DNA of 64,000 bases, taken from assembly GCA_024180945.1 (NCBI GenBank), contig JAKSGN010000006.1, forward strand, positions 4,402,001 through 4,466,000, written 5' to 3'. This document shows positions 20,788 to 35,680 of this stretch, piece by piece. The position numbers were made by a program, and so were the translations under genes. A model generated the notes under the pieces. That model had not been told where the DNA came from and searched no databases. It saw only the letters and a list, made by a program, of their open reading frames with translations. The first letter of the stretch is position 1, and each line of letters opens with the position of its first letter. This DNA is from Macrophomina tecta (taxonomy: Eukaryota > Ascomycota > Dothideomycetes > Botryosphaeriales > Botryosphaeriaceae).

Positions 20788-22033
20788 ATGACACATTTCA
20801 GGAGATCCCACAGAAAATCGCGAAATGGATGCCTCCAATGCAAGAAGCGCCGCGTTAAAGTTAGTCTCTCTACCCCAACCCTTTGCCGCCGGAGCACATC
20901 ACTTTCACATATCCACCATTGCGACGGTACCTGCTGAAAAATCCCAGTGCGATGAATCAGGCCCTCCGTGCTACAGCTGTACCTTGCGTGGACTGGACTG
21001 CAGCTATCCCAACGGAAGTCGAGCTCGGCCATGTTCGTCTCCTGCAGCACGAGCGCCGAGCGAGGATCAGGATGTGGAGGGCTGTTTTAACCACCAACTT
21101 TCCTAGCCAGCTCAGCAGGGCGCCCGAGACCTTTCTCCCACACCTCGAGATGCCCATTTCCCTTCCCGGCTCGAAGAGCTACATTTGATGCACCACTTCT
21201 TCACATCGACGTACAAGACACTGTGCCGGGATCACGCAGACCTCGAAATTTGGAGGTACGCCATGCCCACCGTTGCCAGCAGATTCGACTTTCTCATGGA
21301 CGGCATACTGGCCCTTGCATCTCTTCACATCGCGCTTGAGGACCCGGAGAAGAGGAAACCATTTACCGCACATGCGCTCTCCTACCATAACAGAGGGCTC
21401 AAAGCCTTCTCGGATGCACTCCCCAGCATCGACCCAGACAATTGCGACGCTCTCTTTGCCTTCGGAATCATCACCACCTTGCTGACTCTTGCCCTGTGCG
21501 ATTCGCGCATATCGGCCGTTTCCCGGACTCCCTTCGACAACATAGTCTTCATTTCCAAGCTCTTGAAGGGAATCGGCACGATAGTGAGCGAGCACAGGCA
21601 ATGGCTGCATAGCGGCAAATTCCAGGGCCTGCTCGCCAAGGTTGATACGCCATCTTCAGTTGCGCCGGATGAGACGTGCGGAGAAGCTATTGCTTCGGCT
21701 CGACAGCATATATTCCATTATATCGCCGGCATGGACGAGAGTGAGCGGAGTGTGTACACGGCCGCGGTAGGAATGCTTGATGCATACTCGGGAACGGAAT
21801 CGGCCGGTTTGGACATCGGCGCCTTGGTCGCTTTCCCTCTGCTCATGGACGAGAGAATTGTCGCGCATCTGTGCGAAAATCGTTACCCCGCCTTGCATGT
21901 TTTGCTTTACTACGGTCTGCTGATGAGCCAGCTGGAGGATCGATGGTGGGCGCGCATGTTTGGGAGACAGCTTATCAGCGATTTAAAAGTTTTCATCGAT
22001 ACGTTCCATAGCGGTTACGATCCCGCGCTGTAA
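20788..22033 (+). CDS. Zn2Cys6 fungal-type transcription factor
   Basis: Exons 20788-20859, 20948-21032 and 21111-22033 join in frame to about 359 residues. The first intron splits the zinc cluster just before its third Cys, a common position in this family. The cluster reads CLQC-KKRRVK-C, then C-YSC-TLRGLD-C after the junction, supplying all six cysteines. The rest resembles the C-terminal fungal-specific regulatory region: LEELHLMHHFFTSTYKTL, a LASLHIAL helix, and a C-terminal block ending near YDPAL. The second intron (GTTCGT donor, CCAG acceptor) is inferred from frame and an in-frame TAG at 21104; other acceptors are possible. The domain layout resembles short sterol-uptake-regulator-like proteins, but its targets are unknown. 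Confidence 0.83.
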
Positions 22034-25970: not shown

Positions 25971-27622
25971 TTACAGCTTGAAGCCGCCAGGCACAGCCAT
26001 CTGAAACAGCTGCGAGGGGTCGTACTTGCCAGCGATCGCCCGGAGCTCAGCCACGTTTGCCTCGCCATAACCTGCAATCGGATCCTGCCAAACGGCCGCG
26101 TAATTCGGGAAGATGTACTCGTTGAAAACCCCAATCTCCTTCGCAACCGCCTCCGCCTTATCCATCAAATCCTCAACAGTACCAGAGACTTTAGCATTGT
26201 CAGCCTCATTGTCCCACTGAATAGTAAGGCAATAGATCATCAGATCCCCGTCTTCCTCATCTAGGCCCTGGAACGTCCCTCCAGTCTCGTTGGCCTTGGA
26301 TATGGTGACCTGATTGAAAGGCTGCGCGCTTACGATGAACAACAGTCCATCAGTGCCATCCAAATCCCGTGCAGTGGTGGTTGCCAGCTCGTAAAACCTT
26401 TGGTTCATGACCGCGCTATTCTTGAACGTTGCGGTAGTGAAAAGGCGTTGAGATTTTCCATCCCCGGTGGATTCGAGCTCCACAGTGAAGTTGGTGAGAT
26501 GTTCGATGCGAAAGGTTTCCGATGCAGGCTTGACGACCTCGGTGAAGTTCTCGAACGTCGCTGGGAAGGGCTCTGGCTTGGTGTAGTGTATATGGCCCAT
26601 GACAACTTCGCTACCATAGACCCAGCCGTATAGAAGAGTAAGCTGCGCGAACTCGTCATAGCCATCGCTGGAGGCAAACGCTTCAAAGTGATCGAAGAGA
26701 GCAGGGAGGTCTTCCGGCGCCCAATTCGCGACACCACCCCAGAAGGCGCCCTGTTCAAGGGCCTTGAGGTCCAGGCGAGTCACAACACCGAAGTTGTTGA
26801 TGCCACCCTTCAGAGCCTTGTATAGGTCGGGTTTTTCTTGGATGTTGGCGTTGACAATTTCTCCCGATGCGAGAACGACCTCGAAGTTGAGGACGTTGGC
26901 GCAAGGTAGACCCACACGCGGAGAAAAGAATGACATACCACCTTGGATACTGGTCAGTAATCTCCTAACATTTGAGTTTGCCGAGGATTCCTACCCATCA
27001 AGACCAGACCTCCAACCCCGACGGTGCGCGAACGGCCACCAACAACAGTCAAATTCTGTGGATCCAGAACTCGATACACATCCTCCCACCGATTCCCGGG
27101 GCCAACAGAAACATATGACCGGTCCTCTGCTGGCGTGACCGTATTGAGGCCGGCAAGATTGATTGTGACGCCACCCTGGATGTTTGCCGCATCCGCGTTG
27201 GGGGTATGGCCACCGCTGCGAATGGCAAACTTACAGGCCTCGCTGCCAAGCCGTGCCGCCGCGCTGAGAATTTTTATCGCCTTCGAGACGTCCTCTGCAG
27301 ATTCGGGCAAGACTACGCAAGCTGGCTTTACTGCTTCGGCTTGCGCACTCCAATAAGGGTCGACCGAAGCATTGAAGTCTTTAGCACCGGAGACGATAAT
27401 TTTACCGGGAAGTTCGTCGCCGAGAATGGAGCACTATAAATTCCGTCAGCTTGATCTAATGCGGCATGTGAAGTGCATGCAGAGAAAAACACTGCACTGT
27501 TGGCAACGTACGCAATTGGCGTTTCGAGAGGTGCTTCTCGTCCAGTCGCTCAATGCTTCTCCCCATGCGCCCTGTACGGAGCAGGTGCCAGCCAGAAGAG
27601 TAGTGGCGAGATGAGTTCGCAT
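25971..27622 (-). CDS. secreted FAD-binding oxidoreductase (BBE/VAO type)
   Basis: Three exons (27622-27512, 27433-26995, 26941-25971) join in frame to 506 residues. A short hydrophobic signal peptide starts the protein. The FAD_binding_4 domain follows: VVLPESAEDVSKAI, then IRSGGHTPN with the His (about residue 113) that normally bonds FAD, YVSVGPGNRWEDVY, VVGGRSRTVGVGG and GLVLMGGMSFFSPRVG. A NFGVVTRLDL block and a C-terminal BBE-type segment (NYAAVWQD, then YDPSQLFQ) complete the fold. Members oxidise alcohols, sugars or alkaloid-like secondary metabolites with O2; the substrate here cannot be read. No biosynthetic cluster partner is visible next to it. The 5' end lies only 260 bp from the chromovirus insertion, so its promoter region may have been altered by that event. 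The frame is intact. Confidence 0.9.
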
Positions 27623-27882: not shown

Positions 27883-28371
27883 TGTAACGAGCGGGCCTCT
27901 GCCTCTAAGGATCCAAACACCGAAGAGGGAGAAAACCTGTCGAGGGGGTTTTCCTTGAGTGGGTACAAGAAGAGGGTGAGAGCAAGTCGAACACGTGACA
28001 AGACTGAGCACTGCGTGCGAAGGCCGTGTTACTAACAATGTGCTGAATTGTTATTGAAGTTGACCACGAAGGTCAAAGCTATCTAAGGAGTGTGGTTTAT
28101 ATACAAGTAGGAAAGTGTATACAATCTAGTTTCTGATCCGTCTGCTCTGTCCCTCGGGAGGGCGGTGACCTTGGGAGCAGACAGAGTAGCTTGTCCTGCT
28201 CTGGGTGCTCTGTGGTGTTCCGGTCCGAGCGCCTTCGGAGCAGTGAGAGCACTATCTTGGCGTCACGTGCTTCACGTGAGCGCGCGTGGGTCCTTTCCAC
28301 GCCGCACCCGAGCTCCCCACTTACTACCTCATCCTGCTGTTCCCTAACCCTGTGGAGGCTGCGCCGTAACA
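27883..28371 (-). repeat. left LTR (3' LTR of the element)
   Basis: The 489 bp begin TGTAACGAGC and end GCGCCGTAACA on the plus strand. It matches the right LTR along its full length on visual alignment. Short plus-strand frames inside it appear in both LTRs and are not genes. Confidence 0.97.
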
Positions 28372-30696
28372 CTATCCCCCCTTTTAGGTCCTTCGGCCCG
28401 AAGGATTCCGTGACGTGTATAAGTTCTTGGTAGGTGACCTTCGCTTCCTTCCGTGACTTTCGCTCATCATGCCCAAGGTTTCTTCGACGCAACGTCGCCA
28501 CGCGCTCGTCAGTCGCTGCCGATACGAGATGCCTTCCCCCTGCAGCGCTTGTCGTGCCGCTGGTGCGAAGTGTTTCATTAGCTTGGATTCGGGGCACTGC
28601 AAGCGCTGTTTGTCGAAGAACCGTAAATGCGACTTGGTGGTTTCTCAGCGCGACTGTGTGTCTTCCCCGCTTGTTCTCTGTCCTGGCTGACTTTTGTAGG
28701 GGCGAAAATTGACGCGGAAGTGGAGAAGGTGGAGGATCAGCTGGAGCGCCTTCATGAGGATGAGCGTCAAATTCTGGTGGAGGAGTTAAAACTCCAGGAG
28801 CGTCGTTCCGAGGTGTACGCTCGTCGTCATCGCTTAAAGAAGCAACTCGCTCTTCTTGAGCGTAAGCGGAAGGGGATGTTTGAACGCGAGCTAGCGTCCA
28901 TCGAGGAGTTGGAAAAACTCGAAAAGGAGGATCGCGACAGGCGACGTGCAGCTGGCGAGGACGTGCCAACTCCGGAACGTTCTCCGAGTCCTCCTGTTGT
29001 TGCGGGCTCCTCGAATTCTGGAGGTCCTCAGCCTGACTCGGTGGCTGGGATTGCGTTTCCGTCTGGGGCTGAGTTGTGGATGGATCCGTCCTTCTGGGGC
29101 GACCCCGTTTCCGCGGGAGGTCAGGGTTCTGGCGATGGAATTCTGTGACGAGATCTGGGTGTATGTCGTCCTTTGGCACCCACTGGTTGTCTTCATTTCC
29201 GTAACCCTCCCATTTGACGAGATATTTGAGCTGACGTCCGAACCGCTTGCAGTCTAGGATCTTCTCGACTGGGTACTGGGTTTCTTCGGCGTCAGGGTTT
29301 TCTGGTACAATCTCTTCTTGAGTTTCTGGGATGGTGGCGTTTTCTGGTGCTGGCTCGAGCAATGCCACGTGAAAGGTAGAGTTCATTCGTGTGTTAGGCA
29401 ATTTGAGTCGATAAGTGACTTCTCCCAGTTTTTTTGCAATTTCGAATGGACCGATTTTCTTGAAATCCAATTTGTCGCTCGGTCGTTTTGATTTGATGTT
29501 TTTCGTGAGGAGGTACACTTTATCCCCCCTTTTAAGGTTCGGTGCCGCCTGGTGCCGTCTGTTGTAGTATTTGGACATCATGATTCGTACATATTCGAGG
29601 TCGAGACTGATGGCTTTGTGCAATCCTCTTAGCTGCTCGGCCTTGAGAACACCTTTCTGGGCCAATTTCCTGCTTGGGATGGCTTCTCTATACGCGTCTG
29701 GTTCAAACCCATAGTTGGCAAAGAACGGGGATACGTTGGTTGACTCTTGTTTGGCGCTGTTATAGGCGAATTGTGCCGTGGGCAGCCATGTGGCCCAGTC
29801 ATCCTGTGGGTAGTTGATGTAACAGCGGAGATATTGTTCGAGAGTCCGGTTCATCCGTTCTGTCTGGCCGTCGGTTTGCGCGTGTGCCGTTGTAGAGAGT
29901 TTGTTCTTTGCTCCAAGCTGGCGCGTAAGTGTTTGCCAAAATTCCGATCTCATCAGCTTGTCCCTGTCCGAGACCAATACTTCCGGCATTCCGTGATCCG
30001 CGAAGATGTATCGGAGAAACGTGTAGGCTAGCTGTTCTGCATTCGATGCTTCTAGGTAGGGCAAAAAGCATGCGTACTTCGTGAGTCTGTCGACAAAGAC
30101 TAGGATCGAGTCGAATTTGACTCCTGTGAGCGGATCTCTGGACTCTGGTAGCTTCGTGATGAAGTCTAGTGTGATCCATTGCCATGGTCGTTCTGGTACT
30201 TCCAGGGGTTGTAGTTGTCCGTACGGAGCGTGTGTCGCGGCTTTGCTTCGGATGCAAAGGTCGCATTGTGAAACTATACGCTGGACCATTTTTCGTAATC
30301 CTGGAAAGTAGAAGTTTTGCGTGATCCTCTCGGTCGTTCTGTCGATGCCCTGATGTCCATGCGCGGGTGCTACGTGCATGTCCTTGACGAGTGCTTCTCG
30401 CAGTCTTGTCGGGACATAAATTAATCCTTTGAAGAGAAGCATTCCTTCCCTATCTCGAGCAACACGCGGGTCGTCCTCCAGCGCTAAAAGTTCCTGCGCG
30501 AAGGAGTCCTGAGCGTATGCTTCTCGGATTTTCTGATGCCACGGGTTTGACTCGATGCGAAGCATTGGGAAAGATTGTCTGGCAAGGGTGAGCGATCCAT
30601 CGCTTGTCCACTGCAATACTGCAGGTTGCGGCTCGATTCTTCCTTCCATGTAGTCTACCCTTCTGCTGAGCGCGTCAGCGGCGGCGTTGTCTACAC
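28097..30696 (-). CDS. Pol, second part: integrase and chromodomain
   Basis: This frame starts with the linker normally joining RNase H to integrase (GVDNAAADALSRR) and is offset by one base from the preceding RT frame. The integrase zinc-binding HHCC region is present (HVAPAHGHQGI, then CDLC), followed by the DDE core: WITLDFITKLP, VLVSDRDKLM, and TDGQTERMNRTLEQY, which carries the Glu. A chromodomain (PVEKILDCKR, YLVKWEGYG, NQWVP; about 29275-29160) follows, of the kind that directs integration to modified histones. The frame then runs on without a stop into the LTR at 28097. The stretch after about 29150 lies opposite the antisense ORF and is unlike any Pol tail I know, so the true C-terminus is uncertain. 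Confidence 0.85.
28372..28385 (-). promoter_or_regulatory. polypurine tract for plus-strand DNA priming
   Basis: On the element strand, AAAAGGGGGGATAG ends exactly at the 3' LTR boundary, the expected position and composition of a polypurine tract. Confidence 0.85.
28469..29148 (+). CDS. antisense Zn2Cys6-coiled-coil protein carried by the chromovirus
   Basis: On the strand opposite gag-pol, exons 28469-28655 and 28700-29148 join in frame to 211 residues. The 44-bp intron has a GTGTGT donor, a GGCTGAC branch-like site and a TTTTGTAG acceptor; without splicing the first exon meets a stop. Residues 25-54 have cysteines spaced C-x2-C-x6-C-x8-C-x2-C-x6-C, the canonical binuclear zinc cluster spacing. 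Residues about 65-135 are a highly charged, heptad-like coiled coil, and the rest is Ser/Pro/Gly-rich. This is the build of a dimeric DNA-binding regulator. The usual basic run between the second and third cysteines is weak (RAAGAK), so DNA binding is inference. The ATG lies 98 bp from the left LTR. The gene overlaps the reading-frame tail of Pol. It could be a captured host gene or a chance frame; the intron plus cysteine spacing argue against chance. Confidence 0.65.
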
Positions 30697-33287
30697 CTTT
30701 TTCTGTGCGTGATCTTGAAATTGTAGGATGCCAATTCTTGTGACCAGCGAACCTGTCGTCGGTTCAGCTCCTTGGTCGTGGTGAAGCGTGTGAGATTCTG
30801 ATGGTCGCAATGCACTATCACCTGTTGGTCGGCTCCTTCCAGGTAGTGTCTCCAGTGCTTGAATGCTGAGACGATAGCCAAGAGCTCCTTATCATGAGTG
30901 TCGTAGTTGAGCTCTGCTGGGGTGAACTTTCTTGAGTAGAACGCGATCGGGTGCCATCTGCCTTCCTCGTCAGGCTGGCTGAGACATGCTCCTAGGGCGA
31001 ATCCTGACGCATCAGTCTCTACTTCGATCGGTTTGTCGGGATCGTATATCCCCAAGACGGGTGCTTCGCAAAACATCCGTTTCAGCGAATCGAAGGCTTG
31101 TTGCTGATCGTCTCCCCATTGGAAGCCATGCTCCTTCTGAGTGAGTCGCGTTAAAGGTTCCGTGACCTTTGAATAGTTCCAGATGAATTTCCTGTAGAAG
31201 TTCGCGAACCCAAGGAAGGACTGTACTTCCTTGATCGTCTTTGGTACTGGCCATTCTCTGATGGAATCCAGTTTCGAGTCGTCCATACCGACATGTCCGG
31301 GGGTGATGACAAAGCCTAAGAATTCTGTTCTTTGTACGTGCCACTCGCACTTATCGGGTGCGATGGTCAGGTTCTTGGCTTGGAGGGTTTCTAGGACTTT
31401 TCTGACATGCTTCTTGTGTTCCTCGAGTGTTTCTGAGAAGATGAGGATATCGTCGAGGTATGCCAGGCAGAAGATGTCTAAGTATTCGCGCAGCGTGTCG
31501 TTGACGAGCGACTGAAAGGTTGCTGGCGCGTTTGTAAGCCCGAATGGCATTACCGTGTACTCGTAGAGTCCTAGCCTCGTTCTGAAGGCTGTCTTCCATT
31601 CTTCCCCTTCTTTGATCCTAACCAGGTGATATCCGTCCCTGAGGTCCAGTTTCGTGAAGTACTTTGCATTCCCTAACTTGTCCTGGAGCTCATCGATGCG
31701 TGGGAGCGGGTATCGGTTCTTGATCGTGATGTCGTTGAGTTGTCGATAGTCGACGCAGAGGCGTAGCTTGCCATTCTTCTTGGGGACGAAGAGGATCGGA
31801 TATCCGGCTGATGACGTTGATGGTCGAACGTATCCTCGTTCGAGGTTCTTCTCGATGTATTCCTTCAAAGCCTCCATTTCCTTCTTCGATAAGGAGTAGA
31901 TAGGCTTGTAAGCCGGTTTCGTTCCTGGCTTGAGCGGAATCTCGTGGTCCCATGGTTGATGTTTGGGCAAGTCTCCTTTTCCTCTTTCTTGGCAAACGGC
32001 AACTAAGTCCCAATACTCTTCGGGTACCGTTTCCATTTCTGGTATTGGAGGTGTTCCTTGTGGTTGCTGCCACATCTCCAAACTGCCGTGTTGTCCTCCT
32101 TTGATCCTCGCAGGATCATCTCCTCCGATGGGAGTTGGACAGTCCTCATCCCTTGGCCTTTCCCGTTGGGCCCTGGCCAATGCTCTTTGTTGCACCGCCG
32201 GTGAGGGTTTGATGTACATGAGGCAGACCTGTTGTCCTTGGCGTCGCATACGCCTGAATGCCTCTCCTGAGATTGTCTGGACGTCTACGGGAGGTTCCAG
32301 GGCTGCCAATTGCTTCCGCGAAGCCTTACTCTTGGCCTTACGCTTTTTCCGCGTAGTCCTTCGTGATAAGTGTTGTACCTGAATTTCGGGAATACTTGAC
32401 TCGGTAGGGCTTACTCCGCTTGAGGCGCTGCATTTTACCGAGGAGGCGGCGTCTCGTACGCTGCAGTCCTGGTCCTGTCTTAGGCCTTCCTCAAGGTTGC
32501 CGTTGATGCTGCCGTCACTGGGCCTTACGCCATCGTTTGAGTCTTGCGTTTCTTCTGATGATTCGAGGGTATCGTTTCGCTCAGTAGGGCTTATTCCTGC
32601 GATAGGGTTGCATTTTACCAAGGAGGCTTCGCCTTCTGCGTCGCAGTCCTGGTTCTGACTTACACCACTATCGGAGTCGCCTACACAGTTGCCACATTCA
32701 GGCCTTACACTGGCTACTTCCCGTTTCATGCTGAAGATGTATCCTTGGAAGATGTCTAGCAGTTCCTGTTTGATGTTCTTATAACTGCTTTCTGGGTTCT
32801 CGATGATGTCCCAAATATCCTGTCGTAGGAAGAGTGTATCGCTCGCCCAGTCGATAAGGGGGTTGCGAGTCCTGAGCCAAGGCATTCCGAGGATAACGTC
32901 GTGTCCCGGGATCCTTTGGACATCAAGGGTGACCCAATCGGGGTGTCCGTTGATTTCTAGTGAGACTTCTTCTGTTTCGATGCGTACCCATCCTTCTCCG
33001 TAGTCGGCGTTTCTTCCGTCGAATCCGCTGAGAGAGTAGGGTTCTTTCTTCTTTCGATAAGGGATGTTCAATTCTTGTACTAGTTCGTTATGGATGAAGT
33101 CTCCGCTTGATCCGCTATCGACTAGTATCGAGATCGTGCGTCCTCGCAGGACTCCGGTGATCTTGAATTGTCCCCAAAGTTTCTTTCCGGTGAGAATTTC
33201 CGTATTCGGTGTGCGTGATACCATGTGAAGGGACCTAGACTGTGGCCCCTGGGTCGATCCCAATGCCGTAGGGCCGTCTAGTTTTTT
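30675..33287 (-). CDS. Pol, first part: protease, reverse transcriptase, RNase H
   Basis: The frame is entered by a -1 shift at the end of gag and has no ATG of its own at its start. An aspartic protease motif (ILVDSGSSGDFI) opens it, followed by a long Ser/Glu-rich linker. Reverse transcriptase follows with LRLCVDYRQLN, YFTKLDLRDGYH, VMPFGLTNAPATFQ and the catalytic CLAYLDDILIFS. RNase H follows with ETDASGFALGACLSQ, FYSRKFTPAELNYDTHDKELLAI and a Ty3-type HCDHQNL. The frame terminates at 30675, immediately after the RNase H domain, because a run of five A (30698-30702 on the complementary strand) has one base too many to continue into the integrase linker. All catalytic Asp residues are present. 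Confidence 0.93.
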   Translation of the reverse strand, partial: KKLDGPTALGSTQGPQSRSLHMVSRTPNTEILTGKKLWGQFKITGVLRGRTISILVDSGSSGDFIHNELVQELNIPYRKKKEPYSLSGFDGRNADYGEGWVRIETEEVSLEINGHPDWVTLDVQRIPGHDVILGMPWLRTRNPLIDWASDTLFLRQDIWDIIENPESSYKNIKQELLDIFQGYIFSMKREVASVRPECGNCVGDSDSGVSQNQDCDAEGEASLVKCNPIAGISPTERNDTLESSEETQDSNDGVRPSDGSINGNLEEGLRQDQDCSVRDAASSVKCSASSGVSPTESSIPEIQVQHLSRRTTRKKRKAKSKASRKQLAALEPPVDVQTISGEAFRRMRRQGQQVCLMYIKPSPAVQQRALARAQRERPRDEDCPTPIGGDDPARIKGGQHGSLEMWQQPQGTPPIPEMETVPEEYWDLVAVCQERGKGDLPKHQPWDHEIPLKPGTKPAYKPIYSLSKKEMEALKEYIEKNLERGYVRPSTSSAGYPILFVPKKNGKLRLCVDYRQLNDITIKNRYPLPRIDELQDKLGNAKYFTKLDLRDGYHLVRIKEGEEWKTAFRTRLGLYEYTVMPFGLTNAPATFQSLVNDTLREYLDIFCLAYLDDILIFSETLEEHKKHVRKVLETLQAKNLTIAPDKCEWHVQRTEFLGFVITPGHVGMDDSKLDSIREWPVPKTIKEVQSFLGFANFYRKFIWNYSKVTEPLTRLTQKEHGFQWGDDQQQAFDSLKRMFCEAPVLGIYDPDKPIEVETDASGFALGACLSQPDEEGRWHPIAFYSRKFTPAELNYDTHDKELLAIVSAFKHWRHYLEGADQQVIVHCDHQNLTRFTTTKELNRRQVRWSQELASYNFKITHRKRCRQRRR

Positions 33288-35095
33288 GGCTTCGGATAGC
33301 CATAGACTTCACTGTGCATGTAGTCTTCCCATTCGTTGACTTGAAGGTATGCTTGTTTCCAGTTGGTCCATTTATTGGTGCGCAACTGTTTCCGCTGGTA
33401 GACTATGTCCTTTCGCACCTGGTATCGGAAGGTTGGCATGTTGAGTTTCTCGTCCGGTATCCACTGAAGTGTGTGGTTCTGGATGGTTGCCGTGCCGTGT
33501 TGGCAAAGAATCCTTGCTAACTCTCGGAGGGAGTCGTAGTCTGCTTGCTGTCGAGCAGTCATTCCTTGATGATGGAGCGTCACGAGTGCGGTTTCCTTTG
33601 TGACGATGAGTTCGTACTTCTTTCCATCTTGCTCGATTCGGGTTTCCCAGAGGGTCCCTTGGCGCCATGTCCACAGCACCGTGAGGGCCAATCCTCTCTC
33701 GTGGGGAATCCAGATTACCTGGGCGAGTTGATCGTTCTCGTCCGTCATTTCTGCGCTAATCCCGTACTTGGCTGCAAGGCGCTCGAGTTCCGGAAGGGTT
33801 GTGGGGTCCGGCACAGCTTCTGCTTCGCTGTCCGTTGAGTCGTATAGTTCTCCGGTTTCGCTGTTCGCGAGCTCCTCGTCCAAGGGGAAGCTGTTAATAA
33901 TATCGTCGGTCTCGATGACTTCTTCGTTCCTAGTCATCATACCGAATTGTCGCGGTTCGTGGGGGTACCATCCCGATATGTCTTTGCTGCTTTGGTGCAT
34001 CTGGCAGTCATCGTCGTAGCAGGCTGTCCAGTGCAGCGTATCATGGTTGTCTTGGCGGGATGCGACCGATGCTTCGCGCTGAGCGCTCGAGGTCTGCTTT
34101 CCATCCTTCTTGTTTCGAGGGTTCTGCGGACACTTGGGAGAAAAGTGTTTGTCACTGCCGCAGGTGATGCAGAGTCGATCCTTGTAGCGCTGTTTCTGTT
34201 CGTCCGTCCAGTTCGGATTAGGTCCTTTGGGCTTCTTGTTGCTGTTTCGACCCTTATTTCCTTTCTTATCATCTTGACGGTTGGCGGCGTCGAGGGCCAT
34301 AGCGTCTCCGCCTTCGAGGGTTGTTCTTTCACGGCGAGGCTTCGAGGTGTTGGCTTGTCGAGAACCCATTTTCCATTCGTACATGCGACCGTCGATCTGA
34401 GACGCAAGGTCTACCATCTTCTGGAAGGTGGATGGGTATTCGTGGGTAATCATGTTCTTCTTGACTTCTTCCTTCAGGCCTTTGTAGAAGAGGTCGCGGA
34501 AAGTCTCGTCTGACCATTCGAGGTAGGCTGCAAGCTGTTGAAACTTGGTTGCGTAGACAGCTACAGACCCTAGTTGTTTAACGGTCATGATATCGTTAGA
34601 GGCTTTGCGGACTTCATCCCGATCGTTGAAAGTGGCCCTAAGGTTGTCTGCGAATCCCGTGTAGGTGCCGAAGATTTCCTTGGTCTTTTCTCGTCTCTTC
34701 TCGAGAGAGTGTTCGTTGGCTAGGTGGTCGCGAAGGTATGGTTCCATCCATGCCTCTGCCGTTCCTCTGAGGTAGGTTGATGCGAAGAGTACTTCCTCGG
34801 CGTCGCTGTCGAATTGCGCTTGATTGAACTGGAGGTAGCGTTGCATCTGGAGTAGGAATGATTGAAGCTTCTTCCTGTCCCCATCGAACTTCTCGGGTGC
34901 CGCTACTTTAACCTTAGTAGCGCTCCGCTTTGTCGTGTGCTCGATCAGTCGAGCGTTCTGAGTCTTCAGCTCCTCGATGAGCTGCAAGAGCTCAGCTCTG
35001 GTGGGCTCCGTTTGCTGTGCGGGCTGAGCTGGCCCCTGGACACCCTGAACCTGACCCTCGGCCGGGTCGACCTCCATCTGAGATCCTGGTGCCAT
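33278..35095 (-). CDS. Gag capsid/nucleocapsid protein
   Basis: This is a 605-residue frame. An N-terminal Gln/Pro-rich segment precedes a retrotransposon Gag core (FDGDRKKLQSFLLQMQRYL, AEAWMEPYL, FRDLFYKGL). A basic linker leads to one zinc knuckle, CITCGSDKHFSPKC, of the CX2CX4HX4C type. An acidic region (ETDDIINSFPLDEE) and a C-terminal extension of about 180 residues follow, the latter unusual for a minimal Gag. It ends in AAA AAC TAG at the frameshift site. The protein would form virus-like particles in the cytoplasm and package element RNA. Confidence 0.93.
   Translation of the reverse strand: MAPGSQMEVDPAEGQVQGVQGPAQPAQQTEPTRAELLQLIEELKTQNARLIEHTTKRSATKVKVAAPEKFDGDRKKLQSFLLQMQRYLQFNQAQFDSDAEEVLFASTYLRGTAEAWMEPYLRDHLANEHSLEKRREKTKEIFGTYTGFADNLRATFNDRDEVRKASNDIMTVKQLGSVAVYATKFQQLAAYLEWSDETFRDLFYKGLKEEVKKNMITHEYPSTFQKMVDLASQIDGRMYEWKMGSRQANTSKPRRERTTLEGGDAMALDAANRQDDKKGNKGRNSNKKPKGPNPNWTDEQKQRYKDRLCITCGSDKHFSPKCPQNPRNKKDGKQTSSAQREASVASRQDNHDTLHWTACYDDDCQMHQSSKDISGWYPHEPRQFGMMTRNEEVIETDDIINSFPLDEELANSETGELYDSTDSEAEAVPDPTTLPELERLAAKYGISAEMTDENDQLAQVIWIPHERGLALTVLWTWRQGTLWETRIEQDGKKYELIVTKETALVTLHHQGMTARQQADYDSLRELARILCQHGTATIQNHTLQWIPDEKLNMPTFRYQVRKDIVYQRKQLRTNKWTNWKQAYLQVNEWEDYMHSEVYGYPKPKN
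33281..33287 (-). promoter_or_regulatory. A-AAA-AAC slippery heptamer (-1 ribosomal frameshift site)
   Basis: Read on the element strand, gag ends CCA AAA AAC TAG, a classic X-XXY-YYZ heptamer in the zero frame directly before the stop. The pol frame is exactly -1 from gag. Five bases downstream, GGCCC can pair with GGGCC about 22 bases further on, giving a possible stimulatory stem. Confidence 0.8.
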
Positions 35096-35186
35096 TGCTG
35101 TTTCCTAAACTCGTTAGGGGGTGATACCTTACCCGATGAGACTTGATCTCGGAACCTTCCTCTCCTTGCAAGGATGGTGGTCAAAG

Positions 35187-35675
35187 TGTAACGAGCGGGC
35201 CTCTGCCTCTAAGGATCCAAACACCGAAGAGGGAGAAAACCTGTCGAGGGGGTTTTCCTTGAGTGGGTACAAGAAGAGGGTGAGAGCAAGTCGAACACGT
35301 GACAAGACTGAGCACTGCGTGCGAAGGCCGTGTTACTAACAATGTGCTGAATTGTTATTGAAGTTGACCACGAAGGTCAAAGCTATCTAAGGAGTGTGGT
35401 TTATATACAAGTAGGAAAGTGTATACAATCTAGTTTCTGATCCGTCTGCTCTGTCCCTCGGGAGGGCGGTGACCTTGGGAGCAGACAGAGTAGCTTGTCC
35501 TGCTCTGGGTGCTCTGTGGTGTTCCGGTCCGAGCGCCTTCGGAGCAGTGAGAGCACTATCTTGGCGTCACGTGCTTCACGTGAGCGCGCGTGGGTCCTTT
35601 CCACGCCGCACCCGAGCTCCCCACTTACTACCTCATCCTGCTGTTCCCTAACCCTGTGGAGGCTGCGCCGTAACA
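35187..35675 (-). repeat. right LTR (5' LTR of the element)
   Basis: It has the same 489 bp as the left LTR, with no difference found on visual comparison. The internal side begins CTTTGACCACC on the element strand and lacks the TGG expected of a conventional tRNA primer site, so the priming mode is unresolved. Confidence 0.97.
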
Positions 35676-35680
35676 CCCAA
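35676..35680. repeat. target site duplication CCCAA, right copy
   Basis: It is the direct repeat of 27878-27882. Confidence 0.95.

Follow-up and report, generated by a model that had tools for sequence, protein, structure and literature searches.

The genome of the fungus Macrophomina tecta includes a long terminal repeat (LTR) retrotransposon that carries an additional, spliced gene on the strand opposite gag-pol, next to its 3' LTR. The element lies in a stretch of 64,000 nucleotides (contig JAKSGN010000006.1, positions 4,402,001 to 4,466,000), hereafter called the window, in whose numbering all positions are given (Table 1). Comparison of genomic copies indicates that selection has preserved the antisense protein and that the gene is no by-product of constraint on Pol. 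The protein has the build of a dimeric Zn2Cys6 (Gal4-type) transcription factor. On balance, and with considerable reserve, we favor the interpretation that this factor regulates both its own promoter and the LTR of the element that encodes it.

A spliced gene antisense to the end of pol

The carrier is a chromovirus of the Ty3/gypsy group. Capsid, protease, reverse transcriptase-RNase H, integrase and chromodomain sequences lie on the minus strand between two identical LTRs, and CCAA at both outer flanks forms the target repeat. The Pfam models matched by its frames are those for the Ty3 capsid, aspartyl protease, reverse transcriptase with RNase H, integrase zinc binding and chromodomain; for the integrase core, the score with the rve model is only 16.1 bits, below the cut-off of 32.6.

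A sequence-only reading of the window had proposed that two exons opposite gag-pol, beside the 3' LTR, are joined by a 44-bp intron with donor, branch site and acceptor and yield 211 residues. Our analysis reproduces this position, the splice signals and the length, and the spliced antisense gene is confirmed. Its ATG lies 96 bp inward of the inner edge of the 3' LTR. Splicing is needed to hold the frame, as that reading had stated, because the unspliced frame hits a stop after 73 codons. The junction codon was said to become Trp, and the residue at the matching place in homologous proteins is Trp in seven of 10 (Phe, Phe and Leu in the other three), which supports the splice junction.

Zn2Cys6 domains follow the cysteine pattern C-x2-C-x6-C-x5-12-C-x2-C-x6-9-C. 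Cysteines 25, 28, 35, 44, 47 and 54 of the window protein give spacings of x2, x6, x8, x2 and x6, which is an exact match to the Gal4-like pattern, C-x2-C-x6-C-x8-C-x2-C-x6-C, that had been proposed together with a coiled coil. All six cysteines are invariant in 13 of 13 related sequences, chosen for having an N-terminus; two of these (L076 and L081) have a longer second loop.

The intron is present in all three types of copies described below (I, II and III) and in three other intact families. Its presence in every type and family read agrees with the explanation offered earlier for its retention, namely that an intron antisense to the genomic RNA would presumably pass through reverse transcription intact. 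Loss of the intron in type II was considered, since a tblastn match appeared unbroken over residues 5-209; alignments reveal a frame-keeping intron of 45 nt.

Constraint on the antisense protein

The genome searched comprises 54 Mb in 37 contigs. Over the 680 bp of the gene, five copies agree in every base, among at least 42 nucleotide matches listed, and tblastn with the protein produced at least 86 matches. The copy set began with 58 loci; removal of ten that repeat other places, six without the C-terminus and two without a match (L050 and L058) left 40. The alignment contains 33 of these, after removal of the five identical copies and two interrupted ones.

Transitions in older copies mostly run from C to T or from G to A when compared with the window, the direction of repeat-induced point mutation (RIP); this holds for 263 of 283 transitions in L006 and 247 of 307 in L017. 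An ordinary ratio of nonsynonymous to synonymous change over all differences was not used for this reason. RIP produces transitions only, and transversions alone were therefore counted in the constraint test.

Six of the 33 aligned copies were tested. Between the window and three type II copies, transversions at antisense codon positions 1, 2 and 3 number 22, 6-7 and 44; for three type III copies the numbers are 26, 10 and 42-43. The nonsynonymous/synonymous transversion ratio in the antisense frame is 0.28-0.32 in all six (p 6e-7 to 6e-6). The same stretch read in the frame of the Pol tail gives 1.8-2.1, as expected without protein constraint, and the Pol core, as a control, gives 0-0.28. Comparisons of type I with type I contain few or no exon transversions and thus carry little information.

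Exon lengths differ among the three types by 6, 9 and 42 nt, and the sole difference that is not a multiple of three (1 nt) sits in the intron. Exceptions to this rule are L032, L033 and L047, which are decayed or interrupted copies. Conservation of the frame in other copies had been set beforehand as one test of the proposed gene. Both the length differences and the transversion ratios indicate that the frame is kept, and the ratios contradict the alternative that constraint exists in the Pol frame only.

The Pol frame nevertheless stays free of stops across the entire antisense gene, continues beyond the polypurine tract and ends only inside the 3' LTR at position 28097; thus, the two frames overlap completely. 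No stop interrupts the Pol frame inside the antisense gene in any of four intact families (the window family, L076, L080 and L081), compared with 4-10 stops in each of the other two minus-strand frames, and in all four it also extends beyond the polypurine tract. When the codon order of exon 2 is permuted, a stop-free Pol frame arises in 0.45% to 4.4% of trials. The Pol tail is open, yet by its transversion ratio it is not conserved as protein.

Homologous proteins and predicted fold

Three protein searches produced nine, at least 23 and at least 21 homologues in overlapping sets, the second and third scoring only the best ~8,000 candidates. Eight of the nine nearest homologues start downstream of the zinc cluster, and the ninth (P0009) holds half of it, as would be expected of a gene caller that ignores the intron. 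Fuller homologues contain the cluster. Named sources are Botryosphaeria dothidea, Macrophomina phaseolina, Aplosporella prunicola, Thermoascus crustaceus (Eurotiomycetes) and Watsoniomyces obsoletus (Lichinomycetes). The model of the Aplosporella homologue is without the zinc cluster, and a Macrophomina protein (P0031) shares 87% identity over 97 residues with the family B protein. Relatives sought in viral and genome contig collections were not found, and the homologues in other fungi are known as proteins alone.

The window protein scores 12.5 bits against the Pfam Zn2Cys6 model PF00172, under the cut-off of 21; among homologues, three of 11 match at E values up to 0.1 (best E 0.0031). We therefore class the protein as Gal4-like by its build, and not as a Pfam member. 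Pfam also lists no match to the middle regulatory region of fungal Zn2Cys6 regulators. The structure model for homologue P0012 contains two short helices at the cluster and one helix over residues 62-142, and the two short helices recur in a model of window exon 1. Foldseek searches with these models returned rows that we take to be Zn2Cys6 DNA-binding domains, some by title and others presumably so, in seven of eight and four of five cases, none of them significant. A sequence search of the PDB with a family profile gave four weak matches, two of which are Zn2Cys6 proteins (Leu3, E 0.53; LAC9, E 0.73). The structure searches listed no other fold for the coil or tail and are uninformative on both.

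The fungal regulators Gal4, Leu3, Hap1 and Put3 resemble the window protein in cysteine pattern, ensuing coil and acidic tail. They differ in that the window protein is borne by a retrotransposon in antisense and has only ~210 residues.

A recurring palindrome and candidate antisense promoter

Between the polypurine tract and the antisense ATG lie a palindrome and a TATA sequence (Table 1). The 13-bp core of the palindrome occurs at 194 sites in the genome, compared with six for the reversed pattern. Two patterns that join palindrome and polypurine tract have 80 and 155 matches (overlapping sets), compared with none when reversed. At 10 further palindrome places, a non-random sample, a polypurine-like tract is adjacent in all 10, and an ATG follows 78-85 bp on in seven.

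We compared this region in 23 rows that represent 21 places (L070/L080 and L075/L081 are duplicated; L071, L074 and L077 were not entered). Thirteen of the rows were found via the palindrome, and hence its presence there reflects selection of the rows. Two rows (L016 and L040) have one mismatch in the core. The arms extend at least 2 bp past the core in all 23 rows, TATA lies 27, 28 or 32 bp from where the core starts in 21 (L067 and L072 are the exceptions), and an ATG lies 78-85 bp on in 17, the other six being mostly damaged by RIP. The outer arm bases of types I, II and III change on both sides jointly (TCC/GGA, TTC/GAA and ATC/GAT), as a dimer site or a hairpin would demand. A separate feature is a TAAGT/TAAGC-like run shortly before the antisense ATG in several families (L066, L070, L075 and L067); it is not found in the window family.

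The arrangement extends to other families. A search with homologue P0016 added a second family, in which five matches are free of stops (27% identity, E 6.5e-5). Three more intact families with such an antisense gene are represented by L076, L080 and L081, of which L076 is close to L081. Their start codons lie 80-85 bp after the palindrome and their proteins have 229-250 residues. Their introns of 47-49 nt, with ends chosen by eye, are in phase 1 and lie 8-9 residues past the sixth cysteine, as in the window. Orientation and place of the antisense gene are constant in these three families and in the copies in which integrase and LTR were both matched.

A block that varies with LTR type

Six further copies were aligned along the element, five of types II and III and one of type I (L063). 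The copies of types II and III differ from the window by 6-26% transversions per segment from ~28105-28131 to 28884 or 28947, a block that takes in the upstream (U3) part of the LTR, the leader, the zinc cluster, the intron and the coil. Outside the block, the transversion divergence of the same copies falls to 0.4-2.0% in the R-U5 portion of the LTR, to 0-4% over the final part of exon 2 and, for the most part, to 0-2% in gag-pol. In the type I copy it is 0-1.6% throughout. Two parts belong with the backbone: the presumed TATA of the LTR, which lies at the left border, and the C-terminal portion of the antisense protein. In gag, strong divergence is found in L060 and L061 and not in L062, L059 and L064, which are of the same two types; gag thus does not follow type. 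The changes into divergent gag in L060 and L061 are abrupt, on an otherwise near-identical backbone; these elements are mosaic in gag too.

The type of U3 agrees with the type of exon 1 in all 36 typable copies among the 40, 29 of which are informative. The 36 include the window copy, its four identical copies and the reference copies L017 and L040; copies related to one another do not count as independent.

A short motif in U3 also varies with type. In 14 type I copies, U3 contains 3-6 TRCTYTR and 0-2 TRATYTR sites; in 12 copies of types II and III, it contains 5-6 TRATYTR and 0-2 TRCTYTR sites. Shuffled U3 sequences are expected to contain about one site or fewer. R and Y in the motif absorb RIP, and the letter that decides between the two forms is a transversion. 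The motif was first spotted by eye, and the 26 stretches counted, again not all independent, include the window; 10 of the other 35 were not extracted, and the five identical copies were omitted.

Possible functions of the antisense gene

If the interpretation we favor is correct, the antisense gene would encode a dimeric Gal4-type transcription factor with a zinc cluster, a long coiled coil and an acidic/aromatic C-terminal tail. It would be expressed from its own compact promoter, in which palindrome, TATA and ATG are fitted between the polypurine tract and the coding region. The protein most likely binds both the palindrome and the sites repeated in the upstream U3, and such binding would set the level of its own product and of gag-pol RNA. 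The tail looks like an activation domain, and on this ground we consider positive control somewhat more probable than repression. That the zinc-cluster type is linked with the LTR type argues for regulation of the element itself, subject to the caveat that the two are neighbors. This caveat counts against self-regulation, because physical neighborhood alone could yield the concordance of U3 and exon 1.

Another possibility, which we regard as unlikely, is that the protein is an accessory replication factor, a nuclear dimer that binds DNA or RNA and serves import, packaging, integration or tethering, with its linkage to U3 merely physical. The coiled coil and basic N-terminus are compatible with such a role, similarity to known Zn2Cys6 domains is weak, and the U3-exon 1 concordance is equally expected from neighborhood; nuclear or accessory roles are also suggested for antisense open reading frames (aORFs) in excerpts of PMC7264820. 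However, Gal4-type regulators have this cysteine spacing and a coil after it, the motif in the LTR varies in concert with type, and 10 of 13 relatives have an acidic and aromatic tail.

It is less probable still that the antisense RNA acts rather than the protein, by pairing with gag-pol RNA and limiting the element through double-stranded RNA or interference. The gene is wholly antisense to the Pol frame, and RNA action is proposed as an alternative for aORFs in excerpts of PMC7264820. An RNA function would not account for the constraint on the protein, the splicing of the gene or the homologous proteins outside this genome, although an additional action of the RNA is possible. Regulation chiefly of host genes, raised by the sequence-only reading, appears even more doubtful: the build is that of host regulators, but what varies together with the protein is the LTR of the element itself. 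Finally, a frame that arose by chance or as a shadow of selection on Pol is highly improbable despite the open Pol frame across the gene, given the opposing transversion ratios of the two frames and the homologues in other fungi.

Self-regulation can be extended to a broader proposal, which we offer tentatively and consider rather doubtful. Chromoviruses of fungi may carry a heritable, exchangeable module composed of a DNA-binding regulator and the LTR sites that it reads, and recombination would provide each type with a circuit of its own on a gag-pol backbone common to all. If so, types that share a nucleus could be indifferent to each other, exclude each other or relieve each other's repression. 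A parallel is offered by the immunity regions of lambdoid phages, in which a DNA-binding regulator and its sites are swapped as one block on a shared backbone; the kind of element and the mechanism differ.

Relation to known antisense genes

The place of the gene is that of a recognized class of aORFs between pol and the 3' LTR (brtn, aORF-3R): it is antisense, 3' to the integrase domains and beside the 3' LTR. The gene brtn belongs to Boty-like retrotransposons of Botrytis cinerea and Sclerotinia sclerotiorum (excerpts of PMC8365987, PMC7264820, PMC4227169 and PMC5987419). Like the window gene, it is an extra gene that runs opposite to gag-pol and sits between pol and the 3' LTR, and its carrier is likewise a fungal gypsy element with a chromodomain. 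The comparison covers place and orientation; no protein named BRTN is among the homologues from the three protein searches.

Plant LTR elements have aORFs at the same place and in the same orientation (Grande gene23, RIRE2, Retand and PvRetro13). Excerpts of PMC7264820 describe these as conserved among copies and state their function as unknown; the Grande product is nuclear. No similarity to known proteins is reported for them in those excerpts, whereas the window gene has a recognizable regulator build.

HBZ of human T-cell leukemia virus type 1 (HTLV-1) has 206 residues, is antisense and spliced, begins at the 3' LTR end, possesses a dimerizing coil and acts on sense transcription from the LTR (excerpts of PMC3185765). 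It therefore resembles the window gene in orientation, splicing, association with the 3' LTR, a length of ~200 residues and a dimerizing coil. However, HBZ is a basic leucine zipper protein rather than a Zn2Cys6 protein, starts within the LTR and belongs to a human retrovirus. We infer that the resemblance reflects convergence.

A literature search by title and opening produced no description of a Zn2Cys6 antisense gene in a retrotransposon, and a term search of the survey PMC3248453 produced no occurrence of antisense or zinc. Antisense genes at this place are known from Boty and from plants, and it is the nature of the protein, the module and the breadth of distribution that appear to be new. 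The regulator build, the protein constraint, the recurring promoter with its candidate operator and the co-variation with the LTR make the function of an antisense gene concretely testable. If the proposed function is correct, self-encoded regulatory circuits evolve in retroelements other than retroviruses too, and regulators of mobile elements are to be found among the small hypothetical proteins of fungal databases.

Other features of the element and its surroundings

Table 1. Positions of the retrotransposon, its antisense gene and associated features in the window
Feature	Positions	Strand	Basis or remark
Full LTR retrotransposon	27883-35676	-	LTR pair and gag-pol frames
5' LTR	35187-35676	-	490 bp, identical to 3' LTR
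gag frame, Ty3 capsid	33278-35104	-	Open reading frame and Pfam
Protease, reverse transcriptase and RNase H frame	30675-33308	-	Open reading frame and Pfam
Integrase zinc-binding, SH3-like and chromodomain frame	28097-30763	-	Open reading frame and Pfam; tail open across entire antisense gene
3' LTR	27883-28372	-	490 bp
Presumed LTR core promoter, TATATAAA	28097-28104	-	Putative role; open Pol frame also ends here
Upstream (U3) part of 3' LTR	28131-28372	-	Four TRCTYTR sites
TRCTYTR sites in U3	28143-28149, 28197-28203, 28206-28212	+
TRCTYTR site in U3	28182-28188	-
Polypurine tract region, AAAAGGGGGGATA (minus strand)	28373-28388	-	Named from position and composition; adjoins palindrome
17-bp palindrome, TCCTTCGG-C-CCGAAGGA	28389-28405		CGG-N1-CCG core; candidate operator or hairpin
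TATA of presumed antisense promoter	28418-28421	+	27 bp from start of 13-bp palindrome core; 51 bp before ATG
Antisense gene, two exons, 211 residues	28469-29148	+	Spliced frame, antisense to integrase-chromodomain end
Exon 1	28469-28655	+	N-terminal helix and Zn2Cys6 cluster; 62 codons and 1 base, phase 1
Intron, GTGTGT...GGCTGAC...TAG	28656-28699	+	44 nt; 45 nt in type II copies; 47-49 nt in three other families
Exon 2	28700-29148	+	Coiled coil, RELASIEELEKLE motif, acidic/aromatic tail; stop included
Block varying as a unit between types I, II and III	28105-28947		Upstream LTR, leader, zinc cluster, intron and coil; right border 28884 in type II, 28947 in type III

At ~30675-30763 on the minus strand, the frame for reverse transcriptase and RNase H overlaps that for integrase, which is a different reading frame; thus, Pol changes frame between RNase H and integrase in the young window copy. 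A gene resembling a FAD-binding oxidoreductase (25971-27433, minus strand; FAD_binding_4, E 1e-16 in 26954-27433) lies ~450 bp off the outer end of the 3' LTR, and the element may therefore have inserted near the promoter of that gene. Farther away, neighboring frames at 20792-22033 on the plus strand have a Zn_clus match slightly under the cut-off and a Fungal_trans_2 match. They probably represent an ordinary host Zn2Cys6 regulator, unrelated as far as seen to the antisense gene of the element.
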